Assembly: GCA_030386875.1 (NCBI GenBank)
Contig: CM059577.1
Location: 24,191,038 to 24,255,037 of the forward strand
Direction: 5' to 3'
From: Morinoia aosen
Lineage: Eukaryota > Arthropoda > Malacostraca > Amphipoda > Talitridae
DNA: 64,000 nucleotides
A program made the translations under genes and the position numbers. The notes under the pieces were generated by a model that worked only from the letters and a program-made list of their open reading frames with translations, was not told the origin of the DNA and did no database searches. Of the stretch, positions 3,413 to 63,679 are shown in pieces. Numbering within the stretch: the stretch's first letter is position 1; each line of letters starts with the position of its first letter.

Positions 3413-4262
3413 AAAGGCCCATTACATTTCATTTAATGCTCTACGACCAGTTAACACTGTACCATTTTTCGAAAAAAAAACTCGATAATCCAGTAAATAA
3501 ATTTATTGCACTTCCTAACTGTTTCAAAAATAGATCTATCACTATCCAAGAGAGCGTTTCTGTGAATAGATAAAATGAATAGACAAAATGAGAAATATAA
3601 ACAGACGAATGAAATAAAGCACAATTTTAGCATATGATTCGTGAAAATTATCTATCTGTCCCTACGATGAACAAGCTATGAATTTCATTTTGAGTGCATG
3701 TTTGCTTATATGTTTCTTGCGTTGCGCGATCTTTTACTAAATTACTTTTTGACTAACCTCTTCTGACTACTTCATTGTCATTTACGTCTGTATTTCAGTC
3801 TGTTTCGGTAAAGCTTTTTTGTCTTTTCTCATTTCGTTTCAACAAATAAATGATGAATTCCGAACGATTCTCCAGTAGTATATAAATTATTTATTAGTTG
3901 TAAGCCATCTCTCTGTGTATAAGCTATCGCACACATGATATTTTGATGCTTCTCTCAAAAACATAATTAGGCTCCGACATGTCAATTAGCCTGCGACATG
4001 GTTAGTCTATTAGTACGCCGGATAAAGCATACTTTAAGGATACCAGCTTCATCTGGTGTTCATAAACTACACCCAGTTTTTTCGAGGTCCTTAAAACGTA
4101 CTTGGGTGATATTTTTGATAAATAAAATGACATTAAATACAAATTTTAGCCATGTACAAAATCAATGCATAAAAAGCGTATGAAGAGACGGTCAAAACAT
4201 AAATACATAATACATTTTTCTTTCTGATTAGTGAATCATTGTTTGTTATTGTAATGGATACT
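3413..4262. other. non-coding stretch with an old dispersed repeat
   Basis: No gene is visible. The part at about 3480-3725 resembles 14685-14895 in the same orientation (shared landmarks: AATAAATTTTATTGCA, GATCTATCAC, GCGTTTCTGTGAAT, ACAAGCTATGAATTT). The short motif GTCTATTAGTACGCC near 4003 matches the tandem unit at 15108-15225. It looks like an ancient copy of a repeat family present several times in this window. Confidence 0.6.
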
Positions 4263-10695: not shown

Positions 10696-13658
10696 CTAAA
10701 TAACAGTGATCAAATTGAATATGAAGCTGAAATCACAAACAATGAACGCGGCAATAAAGACCTAGAGACGAATACTAAATGCCCTGCTAGACCTAAAAAA
10801 TGCGATAACTCCACTAAAGATCTGCCTATTGAGGTAAATAATATCAAAATATTGCACATAAATGCTCGCAGCCTCAATGGTAAAATGGATGACGTACGAT
10901 TAATGTTGATCACTAACGATATCGATATTTTATGCGTATCTGAAACATGGTTCGATTCACGAGTCGAAAGCTCATATCTCAGCATTACCGGGTACAAATT
11001 GTACCGTTATGACGGAGTCAAGAGTAAGAGAGGTAGCGGTTCATGCATTTTCATCAAAGATGTCTACTCTACATCCTTAGTTCCGATAAAAGAAAAATGC
11101 GAAGACATAGAAATGGTTTGGCTCAATGTTCAAGTAAACAAACACAAGTCTTTCATTATCGGCAGTCTTTACAGACATCCGTCAGCATCTCTTCGTCCAA
11201 CATTAGATTTCATTGAAAATACGCTTAGATCAATCTCTGCAGCCAAAAAGTCTTTCTATGTTTTCGGAGATTTTAACGTGGATCTGAAAAATAAAAACAA
11301 TCAGCTAAGCAAGATGCTGCACAGACTTAATCTTTCTCAAATGGTCCAAGAACCAACGCGAATTACCAACACTTCTAAAACTCTTCTTGACCTAGCAATT
11401 ACCAACAATCCCCAAGCAGTACTCAGCACAGAAATCTTACCGTCCTTTTCTGATCACCATTCGGTAGAATGCCAAATCAATATTGCAAAAGAGAAACAGA
11501 AATCAAGTTACATTACATATCGCATGAATAACGACTACTCCCCTGAAATATTTCAAGAAAAGCTATTAGACAGATGGAGTGAATTTCAAGGCATGGAAAA
11601 CACCGATGGTGTCAATCTACAAGTTTCGCTTTTCAACGAAAATTTCATATCAGCTCTTAACGAATGCGCACATTTCACTACGAAGAAAGTTAAGCCAAGA
11701 ATTTCTAAATGGATAACAGATGAGATAAAACATTTGAGCAGAGCTAAAAGAAATTTGCAGCGTGAGTACAAACTGAATAAATCAGACAGTACGCGTCGAA
11801 AATTATATAAAGATCATGAGAAGATCCTACGAAGAAAAGTTAAGGAAGCAAAACGGGACTACTTCCACAAAGAACTCTTGGCGGCAAAACAAAACCCTAA
11901 AAGAACTTGGGAAATCATTAGAGAAGCTGCTCAGTATAAAAATTCAGACTGCAAAAGCACTTTTGACAACCCCTCAGAAATGGCGAATGACTTTAACACT
12001 TTCTTCTCAAAAGTTGGCGAAGATGTTTTCAATGAAGTATCCAGGACAGTTTCAGACACATCTACAGAGGCAAATCTGAGCGATGTTTCATCCCCAAATA
12101 GTAGCAACAAGTGGAGACCAAAGCCAGTTAGCGTCATAGAGATACGAAAAATCTTATACTCACTAAAGAATACTAAAGCGACTGGACATGATGGCATAAG
12201 CCTCCAACATATAAAAGACAGCTTTTCTGTCACAGCACCCTTTATTCGCTTGATAATAAATACATCTATAGTCACAAACAAGTTTCCCGATCAATGGAAA
12301 CTATCCATAATTAAGCCATTACATAAATCTGGTGATATCGACATAGCGTCAAACTACAGACCAATCAGTCTCCTGCCTGTTATGTCCAAAATATTAGAAA
12401 AAGTAATAACAAACCAGCTCTCGTCTTACATAGACGAGTCACAACTACTGCATCGCAATCAATATGCTTACAGGAGGAATATCAGTACTCAGGACGCCCT
12501 GTTAAACATAACAGAAAAAATTTACAATGATATTGACCAAAAAAATTAACTCTCTTACTATTGCTTGATCTCTCCAAAGCTTTCGACAGTGTTGAGCATA
12601 AGAAACTTCTACAAAAAATTTCAAACCTCAGAATAGACACTCAGTGGTTTGAAAGCTACCTACGAAACCGCTCTCATGCAGTGTGCTTGAATAACAAAAT
12701 GTCATCATTCATACCAAATAATTTTGGCGTTCCTCAGGGTTCAATCATCGGCCCACTCCTATTTTCAATTTTCATCAACGATTTCCCTACCATGCCGGCA
12801 AACACAAAAATCTCAATGTATGCTGATGACGTACAAATTGCCATGACAAGCTCAACAGCGGATTTAACAGAAACACAAGCCAACGCAGAAAACCTTCTGA
12901 GAAATCTGAAATTGTGGTATGACCATAATGGCCTCAAACTTAACGCAAGTAAAACGCAATGCATTATTTTTGGATCACAGAATGCGACTGAAAATTTACC
13001 ACCATTCAAGCTAACATTTGGAGACGATACAATTAAACCAGTCGATAAGGTTAAAAATCTGGGTGTTTGGTTTGACAAAAATATGACTTTCAATTCACAA
13101 GTCGAAACAATGTGCAACAAAATTAACGGAACCTTAATGTTCTTTCATCGTATAAAGAACACACTTGACGAAAAATCTAGATTATTAGTGATTCAGTCTT
13201 TAGTTTTATCGCGTCTGGACTACTGCAGTCTTGTGTGGGGAGACTTACCTAAATGTCGTCAGGAAGAGTTGCAAAAATGTGTAAACTTCGCCGCCAAAGT
13301 GGTATGCAAAGGAAATTTCAATAAATACGATCATGTCACCTCTCTTTTAAGAAAACTCGACAGGATCCCAATACCGAACAGATTCATGATCCAGAAAGCT
13401 CGACGAGTATTCTCCTCTCTGTACCTCCCCCAAAGTAATGCAGAGGTGGTAAAATTTTTTCCATCTAATATCCCAAACGAAAGACCAAACCGGAGGAACG
13501 ATGTTTTAGTCAGTTACCGTTCATCTAACGTGGGACAAAAGGCTCTCTCAGTTTCTGGAGCTTTTTTGTGGAACAAGCTTCCCCAGCATATCAAAAACTC
13601 TAAAACTGGAAAAGAATTTAGAGTAAATGTGTCACGTCATTTTGCATCTCTGTCATAG
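10696..13658 (+). pseudogene. LINE ORF2: APE endonuclease and reverse transcriptase, one frameshift
   Basis: The frame is open from the base after the ORF1 stop to 12549, with no stop between. Endonuclease motifs are HINARSLNGK, DILCVSETWF (catalytic Glu), YVFGDFNVDL and SFSDHHSVE (the catalytic His pair). The RT has NYRPISLLPVMSKILEKVI, LDLSKAFDSVEH, FGVPQGSIIGPLLFSIFIND and YADDVQIAM. A missing A in the run at about 12539-12546 ends the first part, and the rest is open in another frame from about 12551 to 13658. The C-terminal part contains SRLDYCSLVWGDLP and ends HFASLS. ATG codons are scarce near 10696-10850, so how ORF2 starts is unclear. Confidence 0.88.
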
Positions 13659-30200: not shown

Positions 30201-33200
30201 ACCAAATGATACTTATGACTGTACTCTGAAATGTAATTTCATGCTAAACAATGCGAATTACCACTCTTATTGCATCTTTCACTTAGCTGTTGTGACGTAT
30301 GACGTACTCAAGTTCTGGCGCTCTTTAATGTCAGCCTTGTGAAATGCTCATGTTAGGATGGATAATTCTTTTGAGTAATTTGATCCATGATCAGTTCATG
30401 GCAAATCTCCTCTCCAGTCAAGTATTGGAATGGTAAAAGCTACTCTATAGTCAGTAACTGTTCTTCCATTTCTGTTAGAAGTGATTCAATCAATCATCTG
30501 CTTAAGCAAGCCTGAATTGATTGTTCTCAGTATCCCGTTCGTCTTTAGCAGTGTTGTTGACGAAATTTACAGTGCTTGGAATAAAATAGTGCAGTACCCA
30601 AGTCTTCACATCGCATTCATGCATGAAAGACGCCCTGGTTCAGATCAGTTATTCGGAAGATTTGTTCCATTATTTGTTTATTTATATCACCGTAATGAAA
30701 TAATACTTCATATCAAAAGGTGGTATTTGGGGCTTGCACCTACTCAATTATATAAAGGGAAACCAGCAGTTTTGAGTGGGAAGTACGATGTATATCTAGT
30801 CCCCAAGACCTTAATGAATAAATTGTTTGAGATGCCTATGTCAGGTTGCTATATTTATAATTTTTATGTGAATATTTCAAAATATTCTTCTCGATGTTTC
30901 AGCGCTCCCAGGGGGACAATGTGAGGGCCCGAGCTGAGAGTTAGGTAGCCCTTCTTTTTTGTTGAAATAAAATGTTTTTGTTATGTTAAGGACCACCTTT
31001 TTTCGGTTCACTGCTGTCCTGTTCTTCAGCTCCTAATACTTCTTCAACTTTGATCTTGTTTCATAATCTTCTTTCACAACTTACTGTTCCTATGCCTTTC
31101 TGCATAGATTCCGCATTTCCCTAACTCCATACTAAATGGTGCCTTCCTCCTTCCTCTCTTTGGATCGCATTTGTTGCTGGGTAGGGAGGCTAAAACTAAC
31201 GACTAATCTAATCTCGATGTTTCAGTTTCATCCGCAGAATCGTCTTGGCTCCGGCCCACAATACAGGAAATCGGATATCACACTATTCGAAGAGGTCAGT
31301 ACCGTCTCGTGTGTGGGGGGGTGATGTTTGTGTATAATGTGTGTTCTTCCTTATGATGCTCAGGGGCTTTCTCAATTTTTCAAAACTTGAGAAAGCGAGG
31401 TGACCGTATGTGACGTAGATGAGACTAGTGATCTGGTGTGAATATTAGCATCAGGTGGGGTTTTCATTATTGAAATGGTGGAATAGTAGGGTGTGTTCTT
31501 ATTTGAAGTCTATACGTGCATTTGAAATATTTGGATCTTGCTTTGTTTGTTTCATTTAGTATAGAAATTTGGGCGCGATCGCAATGTTCACGGTTATGGT
31601 ATGTATGCGTGCCTAAAAATATTGTGATTTTTGCCATCTGAACTCATGAAAATGACTTGTTCCGATTGTGGAGTTAGCCTTAATACTGGATTATGAAGTT
31701 AGCCTTATTTTCATTCTGTGCTGATTTTGCTTTGCTTTTCAGGGCTTAGATTTAGACCAGAGAAAAAGGATGGTGAAGCTTACTCTGGACAACAAAATCA
31801 CCAGAAAAGATTTTGACGAACTTTTACAAACGGAGGGAGTCATCGATCTTCACATGAACGGGTGAGTTAATTGAAATTTAGTTGAGCTGATTCGTTTGTC
31901 TCTGGCTATCTCCCTTGCACTTCAATTAATCATAGCCACATGCAAATCTATTTTGAATAGGACGTTCGTGTGAAGACTCAAGGCATGTGTAATTAAACTT
32001 CGTTAGCTTACCGGACTTCTTTCATTCCCGGGAGTACGAAATTTAACACATATCATTATGACATTGTCAATTATCACGTGATGAATGATAAATTGCTCTC
32101 TTTTACGGGGATTTTTATTGACTGAGTACATGAATCATTCACCCTAATTTTGTTCATAAATTGGTGGTGAATAACATTGAGATAGGTATGAATGTTTTTT
32201 CCCCTCTTGACCACACGAATGTATAATTTTGTAATCCCTTCTGTATTTTGTTGGTGTGATTACATTAAAGTGATATATTTTTTCGAGAGTGCCCTGTGCA
32301 GTTGATTTTTTTGTATGTGTTTGACTATATTGGCAAGTGTTGCAGCAATATGGGAAAATTGGCATCCTAGGATATTATTAAAGATTTGTTATTTAGATGG
32401 TGTGAGTAATTTTTATTTGCGTGTCCTTGGTCTGTTAAAATACATTTTCGTATTTTTTCCCTTCATTTTGCCTTCACTGTCTGCCAGTAGTCCTTCATGG
32501 GATCACACAGTACAAGTTGGTTCTGTATGGACTAAGTGCTTCGTTTAAAAAAAAAATGTTTTTATTGTGCAGTCACTTGTTGGCCGAGTACAAAGACGAG
32601 GACGAGGACAGAATGCTTCAGGCGTTCCAAGAGGCAGAGCAGCTGACACAGAACGGCATCCCGTGCTATGCTGACCTGACGGGCAAGCGCAGCAAGAATC
32701 ACGGCAAGGAGGGCGTGCGTGACCTCAGGAGAGTCGATGTCAGGAACTTGCCTGAAAAGACCACCATCGATATGGTCAAGGAGGCCTTCCCCAGCGCTCT
32801 TGTTGTCTGGAAAAACCAAAAATTGTGAGTAAGCTCTTTCCAAATGCACAGAATTTACATAGTGTCTTCAGTTGATTCTCATGTGAGCATTCATGTAGAA
32901 AACCTTGGCTGTCAAAGTGGTAAATGTAGCTTGTGTATGCTTTTTATTTCAACTACAAGCGCAGATGTGTTTCTTGAAGCATGGGGACCTCTCAGGGGGA
33001 TACAACTATTGTATCTATGGGAATTAGCGCTCCCAGGGGAACCATGTGAGGGCCCGAGCTAAAGGTTAGGTAGGCTTCCTTTTTGTTGTAATAAAATAGG
33101 TTTTTGTTTTGTTACGGTCCATCTTTTTTCGGTTCACTGCTGTCCTGTTTTTCAGCACCTACTACTTTCTTCTTCAACTTTTTTCTTGTTACATGAACTT

Positions 33201-36200
33201 CTTTCCTAGCTTACTGTTTCTGTGCACCTTGTGCATAGATTCCGCGTTCCCTCAACTCCATACTAAATGGTGCCTTCCTCTTTCCTCTCTTGGAACATCT
33301 TTGTCGTGGTTAAGTCAGGCTAAAACTTTCTTGTATAATAATAATAATGAATCATAGGGGAGAATTTGGAGCTCCTCTGAGAGATACTTTTTTTTTGGTC
33401 AGTGGATACTGGCTGCAATTGGTGCTCTCATTTGGTTAGAACAATTATTGTATGTGAGAATTTGTGTTTTCAAATGGTAGATATCGGGTCTTCAGCTGAA
33501 GTTAAGCCAGGCTATTCTTTTGTTGATGTATCAAAAACTTTTGTTTTCTTGCCGATTCTTTTCGGCTCACTGCTGTTTGATTCCCTGTTTTTCATGCGAA
33601 ATTGTGCTGTTTTCTCTTGGGAGCACATTATTATTATGTTGCGATTAGGGAGGCTTTAGTAACCCTATTCCATTTATTTCTGAAATAGGTACTTGAATTT
33701 GTGATGCTCCCCCCAGGAGATATTACTTGTATCTATGGGAATTAGCGCTCCCAGGGTGAAAATGCAAGGCCCCGAGTTAAAGGTTAGGTAAGCTTTTTTT
33801 TTTGGTGTTGTTGTTGAATTGGAATAGGTTTGTGTTTTGTTACGGACCATCTTTCTTTCGGTTCACCACTGTCCTGTTTTTTTTTTTCAAGGTTTTACTA
33901 TTTTCTTCATCTTTTTTTATTAACTCCTTTCTCGATTAACGGTTTCTATGCACCATGTGCATAGATTCCACGTTTCCTAAACTCAGTACTAAATCGTACT
34001 TTTTTTTCTCTCTCTCTTTTAAACGTCTTTGTTGCGGGTAGGAAGGCATAGACTGACATCTAATCTAATTTTTAATGCTGCAGCAGGTGTATGATTTTCT
34101 AGTTATGGGTCATCCTTCTACATTTTTTGCTATGTATGGATGTGTTTTGATAATCATCAAGCACTTGCCAAATCTATCTTCACTTTTCTCCGTTTACAGT
34201 AACATCATCGAGCTATTATTCGCGAATGAAGAGGAAGCTTGCGAAGCTATTTTAAGCGGGCAGCAGAAAGAGATCAACGGAGTGCTGCCGTACGTCATGT
34301 TCCATAGAGAGAATCAGGCGGACCTATCAAAGCGACCACGTGAAGACGACACCACACAGCAGCCTGCTGCTAAGAAGGTTAAGGTGGGAACGGTACTTGT
34401 GTCTTGCAGTGTGTCTGTGTGGTTTGTTTGTTCCATCTTCATCCCTTATGGTGTTGTTGGGTGACGTTTTGATCTAACCCAGAATAATCTTGGCTAACAA
34501 TGAGGAACATGCTTGAATCAAACTTTCTTTGTTCGTTGATATCGAATTACCTGATTTCAGCTTGTGATGAGTTGAGCGTAATTCGGAAGAGCACGAAAGA
34601 TGAGACTATTTGGTGGAAGAGAAGACGTGACTCCGTTACTATTGTCTGCTTGTGGTAGTGTGCAGTGACTGCAGCTGGTTGAGCTATGATAGGGATGTGA
34701 GCATCTCGTTCGAAAACTTGGCTTATCCTTAGTTGGTCGTCTCGAATGAAGCTGAGAATTGTTTTTTTGTGTGTAAATAAATAAGGGTTTAATAATTTCT
34801 TAGAACTTTTGAAATAAATTTTTGAACTTCTTGCGGGAAGGAACTTAAGTGTGCGAATTTGTTAGCTACAGAATGCGTTTTAGTTGTTACGTCGGTTTAG
34901 CCTTGTAATGTCCAGAGCTGCAATAGATGGAGAAACAGAAATTTTTGTGAGTGTAGGTTTGAGAGCACTAGATTATCATTTCCTTTTTGGTAATGGAGCA
35001 ATAATGCCTTGAAGATGACTTTCACAAAATTATCTTTAATATAAACTCAGTGAGTGTTATTTGATTTTTGCATTTAATCAATATGGTACCTTAGGAAAAA
35101 AGATCCAACAGTTTTTGCTAACCTTTTAGTCGCTGTTGAAATATCTCGATAGTGTCCGAGTATACCGATTTTATTCTCCCATGGGTCAGTTATCTATCTC
35201 TTCTCTCTTGTGACCTATGGACCTTCTGCAGTTCACTAGTTATTTGGTGACGTTTCTAAGTGCGCGCATTCTTATGCGAGAAGTGATGGCACTTTGGACA
35301 CATTGCGTGGATATATTAGCAAGAAGAATTGTTTTTTTGGTGGTAACCCCAAAGCGTGGCTAAATTAAATCAATAATTTTAATTTTGGCGAATAACTAAA
35401 TATGCATATACTGTTTCAGCCTTATTGTGTTTTAAGGATTTGGGAATCACTTATCCATAAAACGGCCGAATCCTTAGGTTGGAAGAAATGTATTGAGGCT
35501 TTGGTGCACAAAGTTCAATGATTTTGAATGTAACCTATAGGAATAGTTTTATAGAAGCAGTGTGGAATTTCGACTTCATCAGTTTCACCTTACTCTCAGC
35601 GCCATTGTTAAAAAGTAGCACCGGAGAGAGTACTTGCAGTAATGTAATTCTGGGATGGAAGGTTATCAAGTCAAGTGCGGAGCAGGGAAGTTAGCGCAAC
35701 ACGGACCTCAGGTCGAGACGCTTATGAACGCTCTTTAAATTGCCACCTGCCGACTGAGCTGGAACTCTATTCGACGAGCTGTACCCGAGTGGTACATTCC
35801 CAGTTTGTTGCCGGGATCTTGTGCCAACACTTTAGTGGGAGTTTAGGGAAATTATTAAACAGGTAACAAGAGAGCTTGTAACGCAAATTTACGAGTTTTG
35901 AGGTGTGATCTCCTGTCATTGTACTTTACATCAATTGAAAACTAATTACAGTGAAGGATATTTTTATATGGGTTTAAAGACGCAATATTTGTGCGTTATA
36001 CCGTAGATGATCGCACTTGAACTCTGGCTTCGGCCCTGCTGATACGTTACCTTGAGCTGACATTAGCGCAAAGATGAAGCGTGTTCATTTTCCACAGAAG
36101 GACGTGGAGGCTGAGGAGGAAAACGAGAACGGAGACGAAGCAACACACAATGAAGAGGAAGAAAATGGCGGGGAGGAAGAAGACTGCGGTGAAGAGGAAG

Positions 36201-43449: not shown

Positions 43450-43842
43450 TTAGATTAGATTAGATTAGATTAGATTAGATTAGATTAGATTATAAGTTAG
43501 TTTAAGCCTCCCTAACCGCTACAAAAATAGAGCGTATCGAAGAGAGGAAGGAGGAAGGCACCATTTAGTATGGAGATAAGAGAATGAGGAATCTATGCAG
43601 AAAGGGCATAGAAACAGTAAGATGAGAAAGATGTTCATGAAACAAGATAAAAGTTGAAGAAGGAAGTCAGAGGTGCTGAAAAACAGGACAGTAGTGAACC
43701 GAAAAAAGGTGGTCCTTAACATAACAAAAAACATTTTATTTCAACAAAAAGAAGGCCTACCTAACTCTCAGCTCGGGCCCTCACATTTTTCCCCTGGGAG
43801 CGCTAATTCCCATAGATACAATAGTTGTATCCCCCTGAGGGG
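43450..43842 (-). mobile_element. short retroposon, full-length copy inside the LINE
   Basis: Minus-strand orientation, 393 bp, from CCCTCAGGGGGATACAACTA to a pentanucleotide tail that appears on the plus strand as GATTA repeats at 43450-43492. It is flanked by the perfect 12-bp duplication GCGAGAGCCAGA (43438-43449 and 43843-43854). It is the best reference copy for the five copies at 27.7-34.1 kb. It has no ORF. A tRNA-type A/B box pair was not convincingly seen, so its origin (SINE or 3' end of a LINE) is open. Confidence 0.9.
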
Positions 43843-54600: not shown

Positions 54601-55149
54601 ATGTCATCGAAACAGGTCTTGGATGATTAGGCTTAAGCTTGGATGATCACCTCAATTAGTCACCATCATAATATGTAACTGTCACTGATTTCATGTCACT
54701 GACGCCTAAAATTTTATAACATTACACTATAACTTTATAACTTCAAGCTGTATAGCTTCATGTCGTAAATCACTTCCAACTTTTTAAAATATTAAAGATA
54801 TCAGTCTCGCCCCAATTTTTACAATTTTTCGGCAGATGTATGTGAACACTTATGACAGATGTATGTGAACTTGGCAATAACGCCATCAGCAACATGTAAC
54901 TACCAATGTCATAATGGAATTTAGATTTCCACCTTGTTCGCTTTCCCACCTTATTTGTATGTAATTTTTACCAGTATGATCATTATTAAGTGTGAACTAT
55001 ATTAGCTGATTAGATATGTCATTGTCGCCTTATTTTTTAAAACTTAATACCTGTTGTATGAGAACTTTGTGACAACGCCTCAGCAATTTGTACACACCCA
55101 TGTTGTGATATTGAACCAGGGTTGCGGAGTCGGGGGGTGGAATAAATTT

Positions 55150-55410
55150 GCGACTCCGACTCCGACTCCACCTTTCCAGAATTTGGCGACTCCGACTCCG
55201 ACTCCGACTCCACCCTTTCAGAATTTGGCGACTCCGACTCCGACTCCACCTTTTCAGAATTTGTCGACTCCGACTCCGACTCCACCTTTTCAGAATTTGG
55301 CGACTCCGACTCCGACTCCGACTCCATTTCTCCAGAATTTGGCGACTCCAACACCGACTCCGCCTATTCACAATTTTGTGGCTCCAACTTCACCTATTCA
55401 TAATTTATAA
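55150..55410 (+). repeat. GACTCC minisatellite, left subterminal array
   Basis: About seven higher-order units of roughly 33-39 bases. Each has two to four GACTCC hexamers and a spacer of the type ACCTTTTCAGAATTTGGC. Reading frames through it (Thr-Pro or Ser-Glu repeats) are artefacts of the repeat. Confidence 0.9.
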
Positions 55411-55679
55411 GATGAATATTTTATTTCTTAACTAGTGTACACACACCGTCAAAAATGACGAGATTCAATACCTTTCTTCAACATATTTTCGTTTGAGTGG
55501 AGTTTCCATGCTTTCAGCTTTTTCCAAAGGTAACTTAATTTTCTTATAAGAGTAATAATCACTCAGAACACAGCATTTTTGAGCCGCAAGAGAAGTAGTT
55601 ATAGCCATTCGTGTCGTATCCAAGATACAGAAATTCAGCATTACTGAAAGTAACTGCGAACATGTGTATGTATATTTCA

Positions 55680-55752
55680 ATATGCAATACAGTACATTGC
55701 AATACAGTATATTGTAATATACAATACAGCATATTGTAATATGCAATACCCC
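55680..55752. repeat. short AT-rich tandem/palindromic repeat
   Basis: About three units of CAATACAGCATATTGTAATA-type sequence, each partly self-complementary. They lie within the hAT-like element, with no gene nearby. Confidence 0.6.
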
Positions 55753-56509
55753 GCCGAACTCGGTATTCACGATACAAACTTGAGTATATAAGGCTATGGA
55801 TCGCTCTAATTGTGATGAAAGTGACTTATCATAGAGCTATTGCACAACGAAAATGAGTGTATTAATTGACCGTGAACTGGAACCAAGACCGCCAGTGCAA
55901 ATTTTTTCCTATCAATTATTCTTAACAGCGTGACACAAAACGTATAAATAAACACACGACAGTCATTCTTAGTAGTAAACGGTTGCAGGTGTTGAAACCT
56001 GTGCATATATTCATTATATTCTTTATTATCGAACGACTTTTAAATTGACTACAGATTGTTAATAATCAAGATACTAGTGTACATGATTGGTCAATAATGA
56101 CGGGATCCAATGGTATCGTTTTAAAAAAATCTCAAGATAAAAATGGCAAACAAATATATCCATTGTAGAAGTACCCGCGATTAAAATACAGTATTCTCAT
56201 ACTTGTGACTGGTAAAACTCGTATCACAGATACGGTCATTAAGCATATTTAAAAACGTCACAAACGCACACAACAACCAAGCAAATTGTATAACATAATA
56301 CCTATCTGAATTTTAATTTAAATTATTGTTCGCAAGAGGTTTTTAAAAAATTTGCCATACCTTTTAAGCATTTAAATGCCTTTGAAATTTAAATGCGATG
56401 AGCCGCATTTTCTTGACAGTTGATTCGATTTTCACGCAATGGTTTTTACTTATAAACATAAGTGAGCAGATGCCTGGTTTTTCATATTTCGATGGTATTT
56501 ATGATACTG

Positions 56510-57517
56510 AGTTTGGAGACTGGTTACAGAGTTTGGTAGAGTGTGCGAAAGGCGGAAATTGAGGGTAAATGTGAATAAAAGTAAGGTGATGAGATGTTCA
56601 AGAGGTGGAGTGTTTGGAACTTTGGATGTGAGGTTGAATGGGGAAGTTTTAGAGGAGGTAGAGCATTTTAGGTACCTCGGGTCGGATGTGACTGTTAAGG
56701 ATAGTATGGAAGTAGAAGTGAAGCATCGAGTGAGTGAAGGTTGTAAGACATTGGGTGCAATGAGGAAAGTTTTTGAATGCAGGAGTTTGAGTATGAATGT
56801 TAAGAGGGGACTGTATGAAAGTTTGATTGTGCCAGTTTTGTTGTATGGAGCAGAGTCCTGGGGGTTGAGAGCAGCTGAGAGGAGGAAGTTGGATGTGTTT
56901 GAGATGAAGTGTTTGAGGAGCATGTATGGAGTAACTAGAAGAGATAGGATCAGGAATGAGTTGGTTAGGGGGCAGACGGGTGTTATCAAAAAGTTGAGCA
57001 GGCGAGTGGATGAAAGAGTGCTTGGATGGTTTGGGCATGTTGAAAGAATGAATGTTGAGCGGCTGGTGAAAAAGATATATATGTCGGAAGTGAGTGGTCT
57101 TCGAGCGCGAGTTAGACCACGGATGAGTTGGATGGATGGGGTGAGACGTGCTTTGTATGAGAGGGGTCTGACTGTGGACGTGGCGAGAGGGATGGCTGCG
57201 GACAGAAGTGAGTGGGGGCAGTGTATAAGGAGGTAATTTTAATTTTGACGCGTTACTGGAAGCTGCCCGCGTGTGATGGGGTTGACCTGTCATGTGCGGG
57301 GGGAGGGGCTGCACTCAATGAAGCGGTCGGGGTAAACCAGCTGTGGCTGTCGGGCCTGACTGTGGGAGGTGGTTGTGCTGGGCTGCTGCTGATCCTGGCA
57401 GTTCAGGTGCGGCCAGTGCTGCCTCTCTCGCCTCCTAGTGACTTAGTGTGGGGATTGTGGCCTGCTGTCGGCTACCCTCCCATAGGGAGGATAAGCCCGG
57501 TATATGTATGTATGTAT
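56510..57517 (+). mobile_element. 5'-truncated LINE with TATG tail and 15-bp target duplication
   Basis: It is flanked by the perfect direct repeat GTATTTATGATACTG (56495-56509 and 57518-57532). The body encodes the C-terminal part of a LINE reverse transcriptase to TAA at 57234-57236: RYLGSDVTVKDSMEVEVKHR, LIVPVLLYGAESWGL, WFGHVERMNVERLVKKIYMS, RPRMSWMDGVRRALYERGLT. A GC-rich 3' UTR of about 265 bases ends in a (TATG)n tail at 57504-57517. About 230 codons are intact, but the RT palm is missing, so it is inactive. The perfect duplication suggests a recent insertion. The clade is not certain. Confidence 0.92.
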
Positions 57518-57623
57518 GTATTTATGATACTGTCCAAGCAAGCAGATTCCCATTGTAATGAGATAGGGGAAATTACGCACGAGAACATATACTTATCATT
57601 GACGGACACCTGGTTTTTTATTA

Positions 57624-58400
57624 TATCGGGTGTCCTGTAAAAATGTCCCCGATTTATAATTAATTATATCTCAGCTTTAAATTAACATATTTGAATTGCC
57701 TTTGTTCACAATGTAGTAAATTTTGTTTCCTTTTCGAACAATTTATGTTATTGAAAATCGGTTGAATAACCACTTTATAATGTCCAATTTACTGAAAGGA
57801 GTAGAAAAATTAATTGTTCAAATGAAAAGTTTTTTAAACAATATTGATATTCTTCCTTATTTTGTAGTTTCCATAAAACTGAACACACAAAAATTTTAAG
57901 GAGTCACAAATCATTACCTTATCTAACGTTTAAATAAATAAAGTAATTTTAGTATCCAACGACATACCCTCCATTTCTCTCAAGGCAAGTATTACTTCAA
58001 GCCACCATTGAACGAAGAGTTTTACCCATTATTCCACCGTTTTCTATCGGTCCTTGAAACACTATTATTGAGAACACTTGAAACTTGAAACCTCTCAGAG
58101 GGTTTAAATACTTAGTTGTATGTACGATACATCGTTATGAAATTATTCTCAACAGTAGGTATTGAGGAATGAAGAAGAACACCAGTGTTGTTTTTAAAAC
58201 TTTCCCTTTGAACAATTTTTCTACCCCTTTCAGTAAATCGATCATCTTGAAGTTTATTCAACTGATTTTCAAAAACTTATATTATTTCAAAAGGAAACCA
58301 AATTGAATAAATTGTAAATAAAAGACAATTAAAATATGTTAATTTAAGCGGAGATATTATCAATTAAAAAATCCGGGACATTTTTATGGGACACGCAGTA
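57624..58400 (-). mobile_element. decayed mariner-like element with long inverted repeats
   Basis: The left end TATCGGGTGTCCTGTAAAAA and the right end (GGGACATTTTTATGGGACAC, then GCAGTA) are inverted copies extending about 200 bases or more each, with TA at both borders. The interior read on the minus strand gives a mariner-like transposase C-terminus (MGKTLRSMVA, then CLERNGGYVVGY) with a stop inside. Most of the transposase is gone, so it is non-autonomous. Confidence 0.75.
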
Positions 58401-58402
58401 TA

Positions 58403-59633
58403 GTATTGATTGTTCTTATACAATAAATGGTCATGTGTCTCCTTTGAACAAATTAATAAATAGGTTTAGCTATTTCGTGAGCGTAATCTCTCCTATGTTA
58501 GTACAATGAAGTTTTAGGATTTAAAACTTAAGAGCAATTGGTCGAAAATTTATTTCAAATACAGAAGAACTTCAAGGGAACAACAGCAAGTCGTTTCCCG
58601 AGATGCGCAAAAAGAGAAACCGTACCCAAGTTAGGCGGATCTTGAGGATTCCAACAGTATGCACAGGAGCGTCCTCTGTGAAATTTTTATTATTGAATTC
58701 CTTTAAAATGGAGACCGAAAATCTTCTTTAACGTAAGGTTAGTTTTTAAAACGATACTCGCTAAAAATAGAAGACACCCAATGGACGCGGCCGGTCATCA
58801 GCACGGTACTCCGGTAGGAAATTTTAGAGGCGTTCTGAGTAGAGAGATACAGAGTTTTAAGATGTCCGGTCGCCGACTAGGTGAATATCGTATCTTATTG
58901 TAAGATTACATATAGCACTAAGATTTTAACAATTAATTGAAAATTAATTACCTTGAATAGTAAGTGCCTATTCAAGAGGCTGCAAAAGCCGGGTCGAGGA
59001 GTTCAAGTCGCAGAAAGAGACTGCTTTTTACGCAATAGAAATAAGTTAGAGGTACCAGACCCACTTTTATTAAAAGGACGACATGCTGCTTAAGCAGAGC
59101 AAGCTCAAAGATAATTTAATGAGTGAACGCCAAAGCGTCACAAGTAATGTTAATTAAAGCTATTTAAGGTTAATGCAGTCTGCTAGAAGCGCAAACATGC
59201 TTGTTTATAGAAAGTTAAATTTAAACACAAAAACCGGAAAAAAATATGCAGCTGCAAAACAAAAAACAACGAACAAAAAGATCTAATTTCATCAGTTTTA
59301 AATTCTTGTCTGTGAACTAAGAGAGGCCAACTGAAGAAAACTTTTTCTTCCACAAAGCCGCCATCAGAAATACGGAAAATATTCAACAGGAAATTTCATT
59401 GAACAAACAAAATTGGCTGTTCGTCTTTGTTGGTTGATCTGTCTCCCTTTCACGCTCTTAGAGATACTTAACTACTGTATCTGTGATGCGAGTTTCACCA
59501 GTGCACAAGTATTAGAATATTTTAATCGCGGGTGCTATTAGGATGAAAATATTTCTTTATGGTCCACATCTGGAAGATTTCTATACAGACAATATCGAAT
59601 CCCGTCATTTGACGAGTCGTGTACACAATTATG
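58403..59633. other. hAT-like element interior, no gene recognised
   Basis: AT-rich sequence with scattered short open stretches only. A minus-strand stretch near 58690-58570 has a CAYC-like cysteine pair after a CAG, but it could not be tied to any family. Confidence 0.35.
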
Positions 59634-59635
59634 TA

Positions 59636-60264
59636 TACCGAGTGTTTCAGAATACGAGGTACAAAATTGCACATCAAGTAGAAAATGGCCAAATGAACAC
59701 TTTTTGTCCTAGGAAATTTTTACCCAAAAAATCGGGGTTGGGAGGCATTAGGTGTTTATTGTTTTTAAGGTTTAAATTTAATGGCACAATTACTCGCGAT
59801 ATTGATTCTGAATTTACTTTACAAAATTGTTAAAATGTGTTCCACCTACATCTATGCACTTTTCGAATGTTAGCCTTAACGGCTGCCGAATATTAGGAAA
59901 CACGTCTGGCATTAAGGTATCTCACCTGCAGCCACTGCAATTCTGGCCACAAGATCTTCCTCAGACTCGATGGGTGTAGCATAAACAAGGCTCTTCACGT
60001 GTCCCCAAAAATTGAAATCGAGTGGAGTCATGTCATGAGATCTAGGAGGTCTTGCAACTAGCACATTTCGCCCGATCAACGTAAATTCAAAATAAATATT
60101 GCGCGTAGTTTATTCATTAAATTTCACCCTTTAAAACAATAAACTGCTAATATCTCAATGTCTCTTTCTTCGGATAATTTTATAGAAGAAAAAGTTTTTA
60201 TTTGGATATCTTCTACTTGGTGTGCAATTTTTTGCCTCTTATTCTGAATCTGAAACACCCTGTA
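59636..60264 (-). mobile_element. decayed DD41D-type mariner, about 629 bp
   Basis: The ends TACCGAGTGTTTCAGAATAC and (reverse complement of the right end) TACAGGGTGTTTCAGATTCA are inverted, followed by shared GCACATCAAGTAGAA and GCACACCAAGTAGAA words, with TA duplications (59634-59635, 60265-60266). The minus strand at about 59920-60060 encodes RPPRSHDMTPLDFNFWGHVK and SLVYATPIESEEDLVARI. This is the same C-terminal block as the intact transposase at 61900-62967. The rest of the gene is deleted. Confidence 0.82.
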
Positions 60265-60266
60265 TA

Positions 60267-61640
60267 TTACTGACAAGTGTTTTCAGAGTAGGTAATGTAG
60301 GCATTGTCTACACTGAGAAGCATAGATATGCATCAACAGTTTTTTATTACTAAGTATGCCCTAATTCAGTGAAATTATAGCAGTTAATTAAATGACTATG
60401 CTTCAAATCCCCAAAATTATGATATACGTGTAGATAAGGTAGGTAAGATTTGCACACTGCCTTTTCTTCTTTGTATCTACACTATGCAGGGTAACAATGC
60501 AGAAAAAGTGTCATATTATTGCTCAACACTATGTTACATTTCGGCTATAATAAGCAAAAGTTGTTCTGCTTTCATTGCAGGGGCATGACGTTTTCAGAAA
60601 GTTTTTTTTACGAATAAAAGTCACTTCTAGCTTCTTTGCGTGTATTATGATACTATCTCTTATTTTCGTCTAACTTTTTACTTTGTATTGGACACTTTGT
60701 TATTTTAATAAGCGCCCAGGTTCTTCTCATTTCGTGTTTTTTGGAGCAATTTGAAACGTTTCCAGCAAGAGAATTTGTACTATCGCATAAATGCAAAAAC
60801 CACTGCAGCTGAGATAGTGCATTGTTTTCAGTTACAATGTGTGTGTGACTGTAAGTGAAGTTTTTGCTGGTGTGTGTAATTATTTTCATTGCAGCTCGTT
60901 TACATCGTATTTTTATTTTTTTCGTGTCTCAATGCCGATATAGATAACCTTACAACATTTCCAAATCTTCCCTTACAAGAAGTAATTAATTACATAATGC
61001 TACAAAACAAATACTATTTCAGTTTTTTAAAATGTATCAACATAATTATAAAATTCTGCATTTCAGCGTATACTAGCTTAGAAACTGGGGAGTGATACGA
61101 AGATAAAAATTAAACATGATGATGATATAGTGAAAAACAACATAACTCTGAAAGAATCAAATTACATTCAAGGAATAACTTGAGAAATGAGAAGAAATTT
61201 TTAATATTAATACATGTTAACTTGACTTAAAAACATGGAAGCTATATCAACTTTGATAACATGACTTGAAAACTAGAAGTCTTTGTGCACTAGACCATAG
61301 CTTCAGGTTTCGGCGAAGACTACTCATTGGCAATGAATCATAACCAAAAGACTAGAAATGTTTATGATCATTATCAATCAATGCATCATTTTGAGCATAC
61401 AGAGTTACCACTCTTTATGTGAGTACAATGTATTGCATCAGCTGAAATGTTCTGCAAGTAACTTGCAACACATTTACTACTATTTTACAGTTCCTATGTA
61501 TTAATTGAAGGAAAAATGAACAAAACAGAAATATACAGAATGAATTTGCGATGCTTTCAATTACTAATTCCTGTTTTTAACTACGAAATATACATTAATG
61601 CTGGGTACAAAAATTATATTTCGCACTCGTAAGTTTCTCA
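60267..61640. other. hAT-like element interior, no gene recognised
   Basis: AT-rich, without long ORFs or recognised repeats, between the decayed and the intact DD41D mariners. Confidence 0.35.
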
Positions 61641-61642
61641 TA

Positions 61643-61810
61643 TACAGGGTGTTTCAAAAATACACGGCATAATTTCAGGTATGTATTTCCCACATGTAGA
61701 CAATCAAAATAGTTCATTACAACATATGTCCGGAAATGCTTCATTTCCGAGTTATGGCCTTCACAACATTGAAATTCACCGGAACGTTTTTCTTTCCGCA
61801 GGTCGTTGCC
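61643..61810 (+). repeat. left terminal inverted repeat of the DD41D mariner
   Basis: 168 bp from TACAGGGTGTTTC to CAGGTCGTTGCC. The target TA is at 61641-61642. Confidence 0.93.
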
Positions 61811-61899
61811 GTCAAAGGACACATTAAGAGGGCACTCTGACAGATCATTCCTAGGCGAAGGTTAAATTCAGTGTTGTGTTTGGCGTTCGACTGTGTGTC

Positions 61900-62967
61900 A
61901 TGTACACAAATCAGGAGCTGGCAGAGATGCACTTGATCTACGGTAAGGCAGACGGCAATGCTGCGCTGGCTCGTCGTTTGTACCAGGAGAGGTACCCACA
62001 GCGACAATGTCCAGATCGGAAGACATTTGTAAGTCTCCATCAGCGTCTGTGCGAGTATGGAAAATTTGACTCTCCTGGATTGGGAAGGGGACGACCAAGA
62101 TCTACAACTCCAGAAGAACAGGAGGAGATTCTAGAGATTGTGAACAGAACTCCTTCTATCAGCACACGAAGGTTAGCGTTGCAAGTGAATGTTCCCCATA
62201 CGACTGTCTGGAGACTGCTGAAAGAGTATCAATTGTATCCTTACCATTTGCAACGTGTACAGGCGCTGTCACCAGCAGATTACCCTGCACGAGTTAGGTA
62301 CTGTCAGTGGTTCTTGCAGCAATGTGCTGCAAATCCGAACTTTCCTGCCTTAGTATTATTTACAGATGAAGCACAGTTCTCACGAGATGGCATAACAAAT
62401 CTCCACAATCAGCATGTATGGGCGTATGAAAACCCAAATGCAACTGTTGTATCTCATCACCAGGTGCGGTTCTCCCTCAACATGTGGGCCGGTATCATTG
62501 GTGATCGGTTAGTTGGACCCCATGTACTTGTAAACAGACTTACGGGGCAGGCGTACACAAACTTCCTGGAAAACATCATACCTGATGTTTATGACGACAC
62601 TCCACTGATCGATCGTCAGCACGCTCACTTCTTGCATGACGGCGCTCCTGCACACTTCAGTCGTACGGCTCGCCGGTACTTGGATCGAAGATTTCCTGAT
62701 CGATGGATAGGTAGAGGTGGCCCAATTGCTTGGCCTCCACGCTCACCTGATCTGAACCCTCTCGATTTCTACTTGTGGGGCCATTTAAAATCATTGGTTT
62801 ATTCGTCTCCGGTGCCTGATTTGGAATCCCTTCGGAATCGAATTGTGGCACGCTCTGAGGACATACGCAACATTCCTGGAGTGTGGGATCGTGTTCGCAG
62901 GTCAATGAGACATCGATGTGAGGTCTGTATTCAAGCAGGAGGTGGTCATTTTGAACATCTTCTGTAA
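61900..62967 (+). CDS. DD41D mariner-family transposase, 355 residues
   Basis: Cuts and joins the element at TA sites in the nucleus. ATG at 61900 is chosen over an in-frame GTG at 61876. Residues 1-110 form the helix-turn-helix region (TNQELAEMHLIYGKADGNAA at the start, in the style of the DUF4817 domain, then RRLALQVNVPHTTVWRLLKE). A linker-like GLGRGRPRSTTPEEQEEI lies between the helices. The DDE_3 catalytic part has LFTDEAQF, FLHDGAPAHF and WPPRSPDLNPLDFYLWG. Between the Asp of HDG and the Asp of NPLD there are 41 residues, hence DD41D. The C-terminus is CEVCIQAGGGHFEHLL. The stop TAA (62965-62967) lies one base before the right inverted repeat. No defect is seen. Confidence 0.92.
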   Translation: MYTNQELAEMHLIYGKADGNAALARRLYQERYPQRQCPDRKTFVSLHQRLCEYGKFDSPGLGRGRPRSTTPEEQEEILEIVNRTPSISTRRLALQVNVPHTTVWRLLKEYQLYPYHLQRVQALSPADYPARVRYCQWFLQQCAANPNFPALVLFTDEAQFSRDGITNLHNQHVWAYENPNATVVSHHQVRFSLNMWAGIIGDRLVGPHVLVNRLTGQAYTNFLENIIPDVYDDTPLIDRQHAHFLHDGAPAHFSRTARRYLDRRFPDRWIGRGGPIAWPPRSPDLNPLDFYLWGHLKSLVYSSPVPDLESLRNRIVARSEDIRNIPGVWDRVRRSMRHRCEVCIQAGGGHFEHLL

Positions 62968-62968
62968 T

Positions 62969-63136
62969 GGCAACGACCTGCGGAAAGAAAAACGTTCCGG
63001 TGAATTTCAATGTTGTGAAGGCCATAACTCGGAAATGAAGCATTTCCGGACATATGTTGTAATGAACTATTTTGATTGTCTACATGTGGGAAATACATAC
63101 CTGAAATTATGCCGTGTATTTTTGAAACACCCTGTA
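62969..63136 (-). repeat. right terminal inverted repeat of the DD41D mariner
   Basis: Reverse complement of 61643-61810, ending CACCCTGTA with target TA at 63137-63138. Confidence 0.93.
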
Positions 63137-63369
63137 TATCTGTGCAAACCCTCAATGACTAGATAAGATGACGGTATTTGGTGATAGGAATAAATACGCT
63201 GTTTCAAACTTAGAACAAAACAATCAACGAAAACATTGCGTATTTTTTAGATTTTTCAGCAAAGCATTCTAACTCTGTTTTGGTTTACTTCTAGTTTTAA
63301 AGAATTATAAATAATTTTTAGCAAAAATTAGAATCGAAGACACCAAAAAATAGCGACTCCAACCACGGC

Positions 63370-63660
63370 TCTACCACATCCGAATGAACGACTCCGACTC
63401 CGACTCCGACTCCACCACATTCGGATATGCGACTCCGACTCCGACTCCATCACACTTCAGAGTAGCGACTCCGACTCCGACTCCACCACACTTCAGAGTA
63501 GCGACTCCGACTCCGACTCCACCACACTTCAGAGTAGCGACTCCGACTCCGACTCCACCACACTTCAGAGAAGCGACTCCGACTCCGACTCCACCCTAAA
63601 ACATCCGACTCCGGCGACTCCGACTCCGGCGACTCCGACTCCCGACTCCCGACTCCGACT
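63370..63660 (+). repeat. GACTCC minisatellite, right subterminal array
   Basis: The same design as the left array: GACTCC hexamers separated by ACCACACTTCAGAGTAGC-type spacers, becoming denser and irregular toward the right terminus. Both arrays show GACTCC on the plus strand, so they are direct repeats of each other although the 17-bp termini are inverted. Confidence 0.9.
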
Positions 63661-63679
63661 CCGCAACCCTGTATTGAAC

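Follow-up and report, generated by a model that had tools for sequence, protein, structure and literature searches.

The sequence at positions 55117-63671 of a 64,000-nucleotide stretch from the amphipod Morinoia aosen (contig CM059577.1, positions 24,191,038 to 24,255,037 of the forward strand; hereafter the window) is very probably one copy of a large non-autonomous hAT-type transposon family, which would be moved by a transposase supplied in trans and would use arrays of the hexamer GACTCC as transposase-binding repeats. Copies of the family have defined ends, duplicate their target sites with a sequence preference, and have spread as a unit loaded with a long interspersed nuclear element (LINE). 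Elements of this kind are already known; the size and the copy number are unusual.

The element and its ends

The main features of the window copy are as follows.

55109..55116, no strand: left target-site duplication TATTGAAC, adjoining the left terminus
55117..55133, plus strand: left terminal inverted repeat CAGGGTTGCGGAGTCGG, an exact 17-mer
55152..55361, plus strand: left subterminal array of 19 GACTCC, repeat unit about 36-42 bp
55362..63354, no strand: interior, in which a hAT frame was not found and which holds passengers
63355..63662, plus strand: right subterminal array of 28 GACTCC, repeat unit about 36 bp, in the orientation of the left array
63655..63671, minus strand: right terminal inverted repeat (17 bp, CAGGGTTGCGGAGTCGG inverted)
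63672..63679, no strand: right target-site duplication TATTGAAC

The two 17-bp ends show no mismatch to each other; they and the 8-bp direct repeat had been placed correctly by the first-pass annotation, which was made from the letters of the window. Their length falls within the range of about 10-25 bp for hAT terminal inverted repeats (PMC3942097). With up to three mismatches allowed, the terminus matches the window only at the element's own two ends, compared with a mean of 0.04 matches in shuffled windows (none of 100 shuffles reached two). The 8-bp word alone is not rare, being found seven times in the window against 3.5 expected (8 of 100 shuffles reached seven); what gives it weight is therefore where it lies, together with the copies elsewhere in the genome. 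GACTCC occurs 19 times in the left 420 bp of the element, 28 times in the right 420 bp and not once on the forward strand in between; all 47 forward hexamers thus lie near the ends, and the reverse complement occurs three times, once within the left terminus. Tandem repeat analysis delimited the arrays as 55145-55376 and 63389-63663, and both point in the same direction. Each of the 20 copies compared has such arrays at its two ends (this set counts the window and leaves out the duplicate L022; it also served for the subfamily comparison below). The arrays correspond to the subterminal repeats of hAT elements, their role being a predicted one.

A genome-wide family with paired ends

The host genome was searched as 1.99 Gb in 29 contigs (labelled C1, C2 and so on; fetched loci are labelled L with a number). 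The exact 17-mer terminus is present 3772 times (1871 on the plus and 1901 on the minus strand; reversed control, 0), a count partly inflated by segmental duplication. The left-type continuation NGGAATAAATTT follows 1491 of these ends, and the second next base is G, as in standard ends, after all but 122. When the first 100 exact ends on C1 were searched for inward-facing partners within 16 kb, 84 fell into 42 pairs (18 of 5.7-6.2 kb, 12 of 6.8-7.1 kb and 12 others, 4.8-15.1 kb) and 16 had no partner. Including two miniature inverted-repeat transposable elements (MITEs), the mobile unit measures about 6.0 kb, or 7.0 kb when the LINE is counted too; the residue of 4.6 kb that the first-pass annotation had obtained by subtracting four nested parts does not describe it. 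The shortest of the 42 C1 pairs measures 4824 bp, and one pair of about 3.5 kb was listed on C2 (C2:16864761 and C2:16868218), far above the hundreds of bp of a hAT MITE. From the C1 and C2 pairs, the family appears poor in MITE-sized derivatives.

The search for other copies with the same ends, recommended by the annotation, also recovered their target sites. Exact 8-bp duplications flank 16 of 20 fetched pairs and seven of nine further independent pairs, including the 15.1-kb unit; in the remaining two (10.7 and 13.9 kb) the duplication matches at 7 of 8 positions. The sequence TnnnnAn precedes 2030 of the 3772 ends, compared with 9% expected from the base composition of the window. In the set of 17 exact duplications, which counts that of the window, T stands at position 2 in 11 and A at position 7 in 14; nTnnnnAn is the preference of Hermes (PMC10368747, PMC2803484). 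Empty sites were found as well: the flanks of the window element, joined through one TATTGAAC (197 bases), match 40 uninterrupted places across the joint with 85-93% identity (40 of 1433 candidates scored, with 4 more matches partial, judged on coordinates and identity). By a single insertion, the window element thus entered one copy of a different repeat, and the earlier proposal of one hAT-type event stands with the paired ends, the duplications, the target preference and these uninterrupted copies. The joined flanks of L020 likewise align through the joint to an uninterrupted part of the window (3912-3576) with 79% identity and small gaps; its 8-bp word is not exactly kept there (3576-3912).

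Thirteen close copies share 92.9-99.7% mutual identity, six others are 87.5-92.6% identical to them, and the old branch L011 shows 66-72% over aligned columns, its middle being not truly alignable. L024 and L027, which occupy unrelated sites, share 99.7% identity, a likeness that speaks for recent movement. L010 and L022 represent one locus duplicated in inverse orientation, the sole flank-sharing pair among 21 elements. Two further ends (C1:703838 and C1:7020913, in the C1 regions 0.6-0.7 Mb and 7.0-7.1 Mb) have nine identical flank letters; together with L010/L022 they indicate a large inverted duplication, either of the contig or of the assembly.

A 20-base array word was found 10909 times in the genome (5267 and 5642 on the two strands; controls, 0 and 2). 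Its first 100 matches on C1 form 37 clusters, of which 28 lie no more than 300 bp from an exact terminus (0.4% of the stretch is so near) and five lie 0.7-8.1 kb away (11% of the stretch is within 8.5 kb); four of these five appear to be placed where a partner end with an altered terminus would be. The last four clusters stand alone, with no associated terminus. The suggestion that the common GACTCC arrays are parts of hAT elements consequently holds for most of those sampled, and most sampled arrays of the genome are explained as the ends of one transposon family rather than as free minisatellites.

Passengers in the interior

The interior of the window copy contains the following.

56510..57518, plus strand: 5'-truncated LINE-like insertion with a (TATG)n tail and a 14-bp duplication TATTTATGATACTG at 56496-56509 and 57519-57532
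57620..58405 (ends approximate), no strand: MITE-like mariner-type element, common to close copies
59636..60264 (ends approximate), no strand: MITE-like mariner-type element with TA flanks, common to close copies
61645..63134, plus strand: private Tc1/mariner-type insertion with ends 98% complementary, a TA duplication and a 370-amino-acid open frame
56096..56280, plus strand: left arm of an internal inverted repeat, pairing with 59430-59609, 72-86% complementary in pieces
59430..59609, minus strand: right arm of the same repeat, pairing with 56096-56280

The sites of the LINE and of the third mariner are both empty in other copies aligned letter by letter. The third mariner is skipped by all 20 fetched copies, those aligned letter by letter having a plain TA in its place; its 370-amino-acid frame matches DDE_3 and a Tc3-type helix-turn-helix just below the Pfam cut-offs and DUF4817 above. 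No Pfam family matched the 241-amino-acid frame of the LINE-like piece, whose LINE type Pfam leaves unassigned. The two MITE-like elements are genuine inverted-repeat elements (truncated in L018), and because they are located in DNA common to the close copies, they are old passengers and not insertions into the window copy. Of the three mariners first described as nested, two are MITE-like passengers shared with the close copies, and the third alone is private to the window. The internal inverted repeat of about 180 bp has a third partial copy at 55433-55470 and may be a remnant of a further element; the old-branch copy L011 has a similar arm pair. Positions 3309-4742 of L011 hold a fragment resembling a Penelope-type reverse transcriptase with a GIY-YIG end, a label that comes from reading by eye and one tblastn match to L046, with no confirmation from Pfam.

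The left junction of the LINE (23 bases including target) is found at 331 places in the genome (171 and 160 on the two strands; control, 0), and 13 of 15 such junctions on C1 lie within listed end pairs. The sampled carriers, namely the window, L010, L019, L021 and L028, have the LINE at unrelated sites. The unit thus moved after capturing the LINE, and the junction illustrates the capture and spread of cargo by such an element.

These data bear on the alternative raised at the outset, that the DNA between two short elements was mobilised by them jointly, each having a GACTCC array and a second terminus of its own. Long unrelated DNA does separate the two ends with their arrays, and single ends exist, as the 16 unpaired ends on C1 show. 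Against this account, all 42 C1 pairs measure at least 4.8 kb (with the one C2 pair of about 3.5 kb); the two ends of the element are unlike each other, and each keeps its character from copy to copy; the interior is common to the subfamilies; and a single internal LINE junction recurs 331 times. The pairing of ends and the junction count refute the composite as a general account, and we consider it scarcely credible.

No transposase gene was found in the interior

A transposase of the PF05699 type was not found within the element, in agreement with the first-pass annotation, which had recognised none. A consensus of 13 copies (5990 bases) contains no frame longer than 106 amino acids. In tblastn at E 0.01, queries taken from 36 host hAT loci (their longest frames) gave no hAT match to the element copies; many of these frames were fragmentary, so that the long ones (L059-L064) count most; the only matches, in L011 and L023, came from a reverse-transcriptase-like frame of L046. 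The profile check of the interior proposed earlier gave no Pfam match better than E 0.14 for seven open pieces, and a 3-base periodicity was not seen in the changes between subfamilies. The element is thus at most a non-autonomous hAT member, and a transposase hidden in the interior was rejected as far as these frame, tblastn, Pfam and periodicity tests reach.

A rival reading is an autonomous hAT element with a transposase gene that has degenerated or is broken up into exons that escape recognition. The size of the unit gives room for such a gene, the interior is common to close copies, and introns are possible, since BuT2 has five exons (PMC3942097). The short frames of the consensus, the lack of tblastn matches to host hAT frames, the poor Pfam scores and the absent periodicity all speak against this explanation, which we regard as very unlikely.

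Host hAT relatives and candidate helpers

In a PF05699 profile search of the host genome, all 150 scored places matched the profile (2753 candidates). Four groups were examined.

L060: end CAGGGCTGCCGAAATT; duplication GCGTGGAA; 2834 bp; iterated motif GTACCAA
L062: end CAGGGTTGCCAGAAG, other end TAGGG; duplication ACTGGCTC; 2574 bp; motif GTAACAA
L065/L066: end CAGGGTTGCCAGATG, other end CAGTG; duplications ATTGACCC and GTGCTCAG; about 2630 bp; motif AGGGAAA
L063/L064: CAGTGCTTCCACTTTAGGGTAA at one end; longer, with the far end not located

These groups resemble the GACTCC-array family in their CAGGG- or CAGTG-type, short inverted ends, in their 8-bp duplications (three of four groups; none was found for L063/L064) and in an iterated short motif beside the ends, which in L060, L062 and L065/L066 is mostly one-directional at both ends, as in the family. 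They differ in length (2.6-2.8 kb, with L063/L064 longer), in encoding a transposase frame of 607-719 amino acids, and in the sequences of the motif and of the inner end. L060 and L063 match Hermes in PDB. The top 7-mer in 600 end bases of L060, L062, L065 and L066 occurs 7-8 times there and not in the middle; shuffles of these end bases averaged 3.3-3.6 and peaked at 6-11, and L060 alone of the four rises above its own maximum.

Duplications of 8 bp are not confined to hAT elements, and the family might accordingly belong to another superfamily that makes them, the P superfamily for example. The family ends, however, have CAGGGTTGC in common with L062 and L065/L066, which encode PF05699 transposases, and the nTnnnnAn target is that of Hermes; we think an origin outside hAT most improbable.

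Helper comparison covered the four groups, with those at C11:65247973, C21:90629108 and C4:31358417 outside it. L060, L062, L063 and L065/L066 were rejected as helpers, as their ends and motifs differ from the family's. Across 38 hAT loci (30 of them 3.2-kb stretches only), the 15-base end with up to three mismatches matched twice, both times in L061 with three mismatches, on one strand and not at termini, and no GACTCC pair was present. None of five hAT places on C1 lies between paired exact ends in the lists, which are partial beyond 49.6 Mb. A separate observation concerns L063 (from 928)/L064: together with C4:83788925 and others they make up 20 full-length transposase places that are 100% identical after rounding. 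Nineteen of the 20 have no stop, the end motif is TTTAGGGTAA, and this family was likely active recently. The 3' region of L063/L064 contains a tandem repeat of about 190 bp.

A proposed mechanism and its weighing

Mobilisation in trans by a hAT transposase, with GACTCC as its putative binding site, is suggested by the host hAT relatives and by analogy with Hermes, where BED domains of the transposase contact the subterminal repeats of the left end (PMC10368747). The binding motifs of hAT-encoded CGG-binding proteins also match subterminal regions of their transposons (PMC8097297). In the proposed mechanism, a transposase from another element would recognise the 17-bp ends and would bind the hexamers of both arrays as subterminal repeats in a Hermes-like manner; it would then excise the unit and reinsert it at a site cut with an 8-bp stagger, and the interior would travel as cargo. 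The ancestor may have kept its ends and lost, or never had, a transposase gene before gaining the MITEs and the LINE, and the GACTCC arrays would be expanded subterminal binding repeats. A helper element would be expected to show CAGGGTTGCGGAGTC-like ends with GGAGTC subterminal repeats.

Several observations weigh against this account. No transposase gene flanked by the family ends was found among the 38 hAT loci. The motifs at the host hAT ends reach 7-8 copies, whereas CGACTCC has 45-47 copies in the 600 end bases of two copies of the family, and the counts of L062, L065 and L066 were reached by single shuffles. Four of the 20 fetched copies (L010, L017, L022 and L023) lack a matching 8-bp word, and the duplications of L025, L026 and L028 carry less weight because in each of these copies a single tandem repeat covers both flanks. 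The ends of L017, moreover, are not better kept than its interior (93.2 and 90.0%, with interior windows up to 95.2%).

Other copies show better conserved ends. When the young subfamily is compared with one old subfamily, the aligned parts of the outer 250 bases show 97.0% identity at the left end and 96.9% at the right (with 20-21% gaps, the unit number varying), and interior windows are 86-95% identical. L025 has the same pattern and L014 nearly so (ends 95.8 and 98.7%, one interior window 96.0%); for L011, 42 and 77% of the ends can be aligned, with 94-95% identity, and the alignable interior is mostly 77-88%. The hexamers are intact even in old copies (25 exact and one with a single mismatch in L011). 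Such conservation is predicted alike by constraint from a transposase, homogenisation of tandem arrays and the ease of aligning repeats.

The arrays could also be read as a competitive adaptation, in which binding sites multiplied far past the number in coding hAT relatives let a coding-free unit of 6-7 kb capture the transposase of its helper. We hold this to be unlikely; if true, the rarity of short forms would imply a role for the interior or for the distance between the ends, and the unit would be larger than its likely helper.

Comparison with known elements

The family resembles Hermes, a house fly hAT element, in its target and in its subterminal repeats, whose function is predicted here; Hermes differs in encoding its own transposase, in its end and motif sequences and in having far fewer repeats (PMC10368747). 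The hAT MITEs, such as mar of Drosophila, are likewise non-autonomous hAT-type elements moved in trans but are short (PMC3517528), unlike the pairs described here. The lepidopteran (GTCY)n MITEs and Xenopus miDNA4 are likewise non-autonomous DNA transposons that spread tandem repeats; they are small, whereas in the present family each end of a 6-7 kb unit bears an array (PMC9659126). The usual length of hAT elements is 2.5-5 kb (PMC3942097). A coding-free unit of 6-7 kb with more than 1800 exact ends per strand, few shorter forms in the sample and copies up to 99.7% identical would therefore be a good natural test of the subterminal-site capacity of a hAT transposase, and its paired ends, available in large number, follow a clear target rule. 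Literature searches with the end and array words GACTCCGACTCCGACTCC and CAGGGTTGCGGAG returned no paper (Repbase lay outside the search, and an earlier family name is possible); hAT together with GGAGTCGGAGTCGG gave one unrelated paper, and searches on large or cross-mobilised non-autonomous hAT elements yielded no paper used here.

Other observations

Seven exact 17-mers in viral contigs, in surroundings of 0.54-0.74 G+C and without GACTCC pairs, were taken as chance and rejected as copies outside the host. The 29-base left end had no match in prokaryote genomes. A search for structured RNA in the element gave a single match far below threshold (E 0.73), no tRNA was found across the window, and scanning the left end for bacterial-type promoters, of little relevance here, found nothing. 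Elsewhere in the window, 1-1422 and 11995-13462 are arms 95-99% complementary, separated by about 10.6-12.3 kb; they may form a large inverted element or duplication of recent origin. Several further inverted repeat pairs (84-92%), about 10-12 kb apart, occur at 30901-33802 and 43537-43842.

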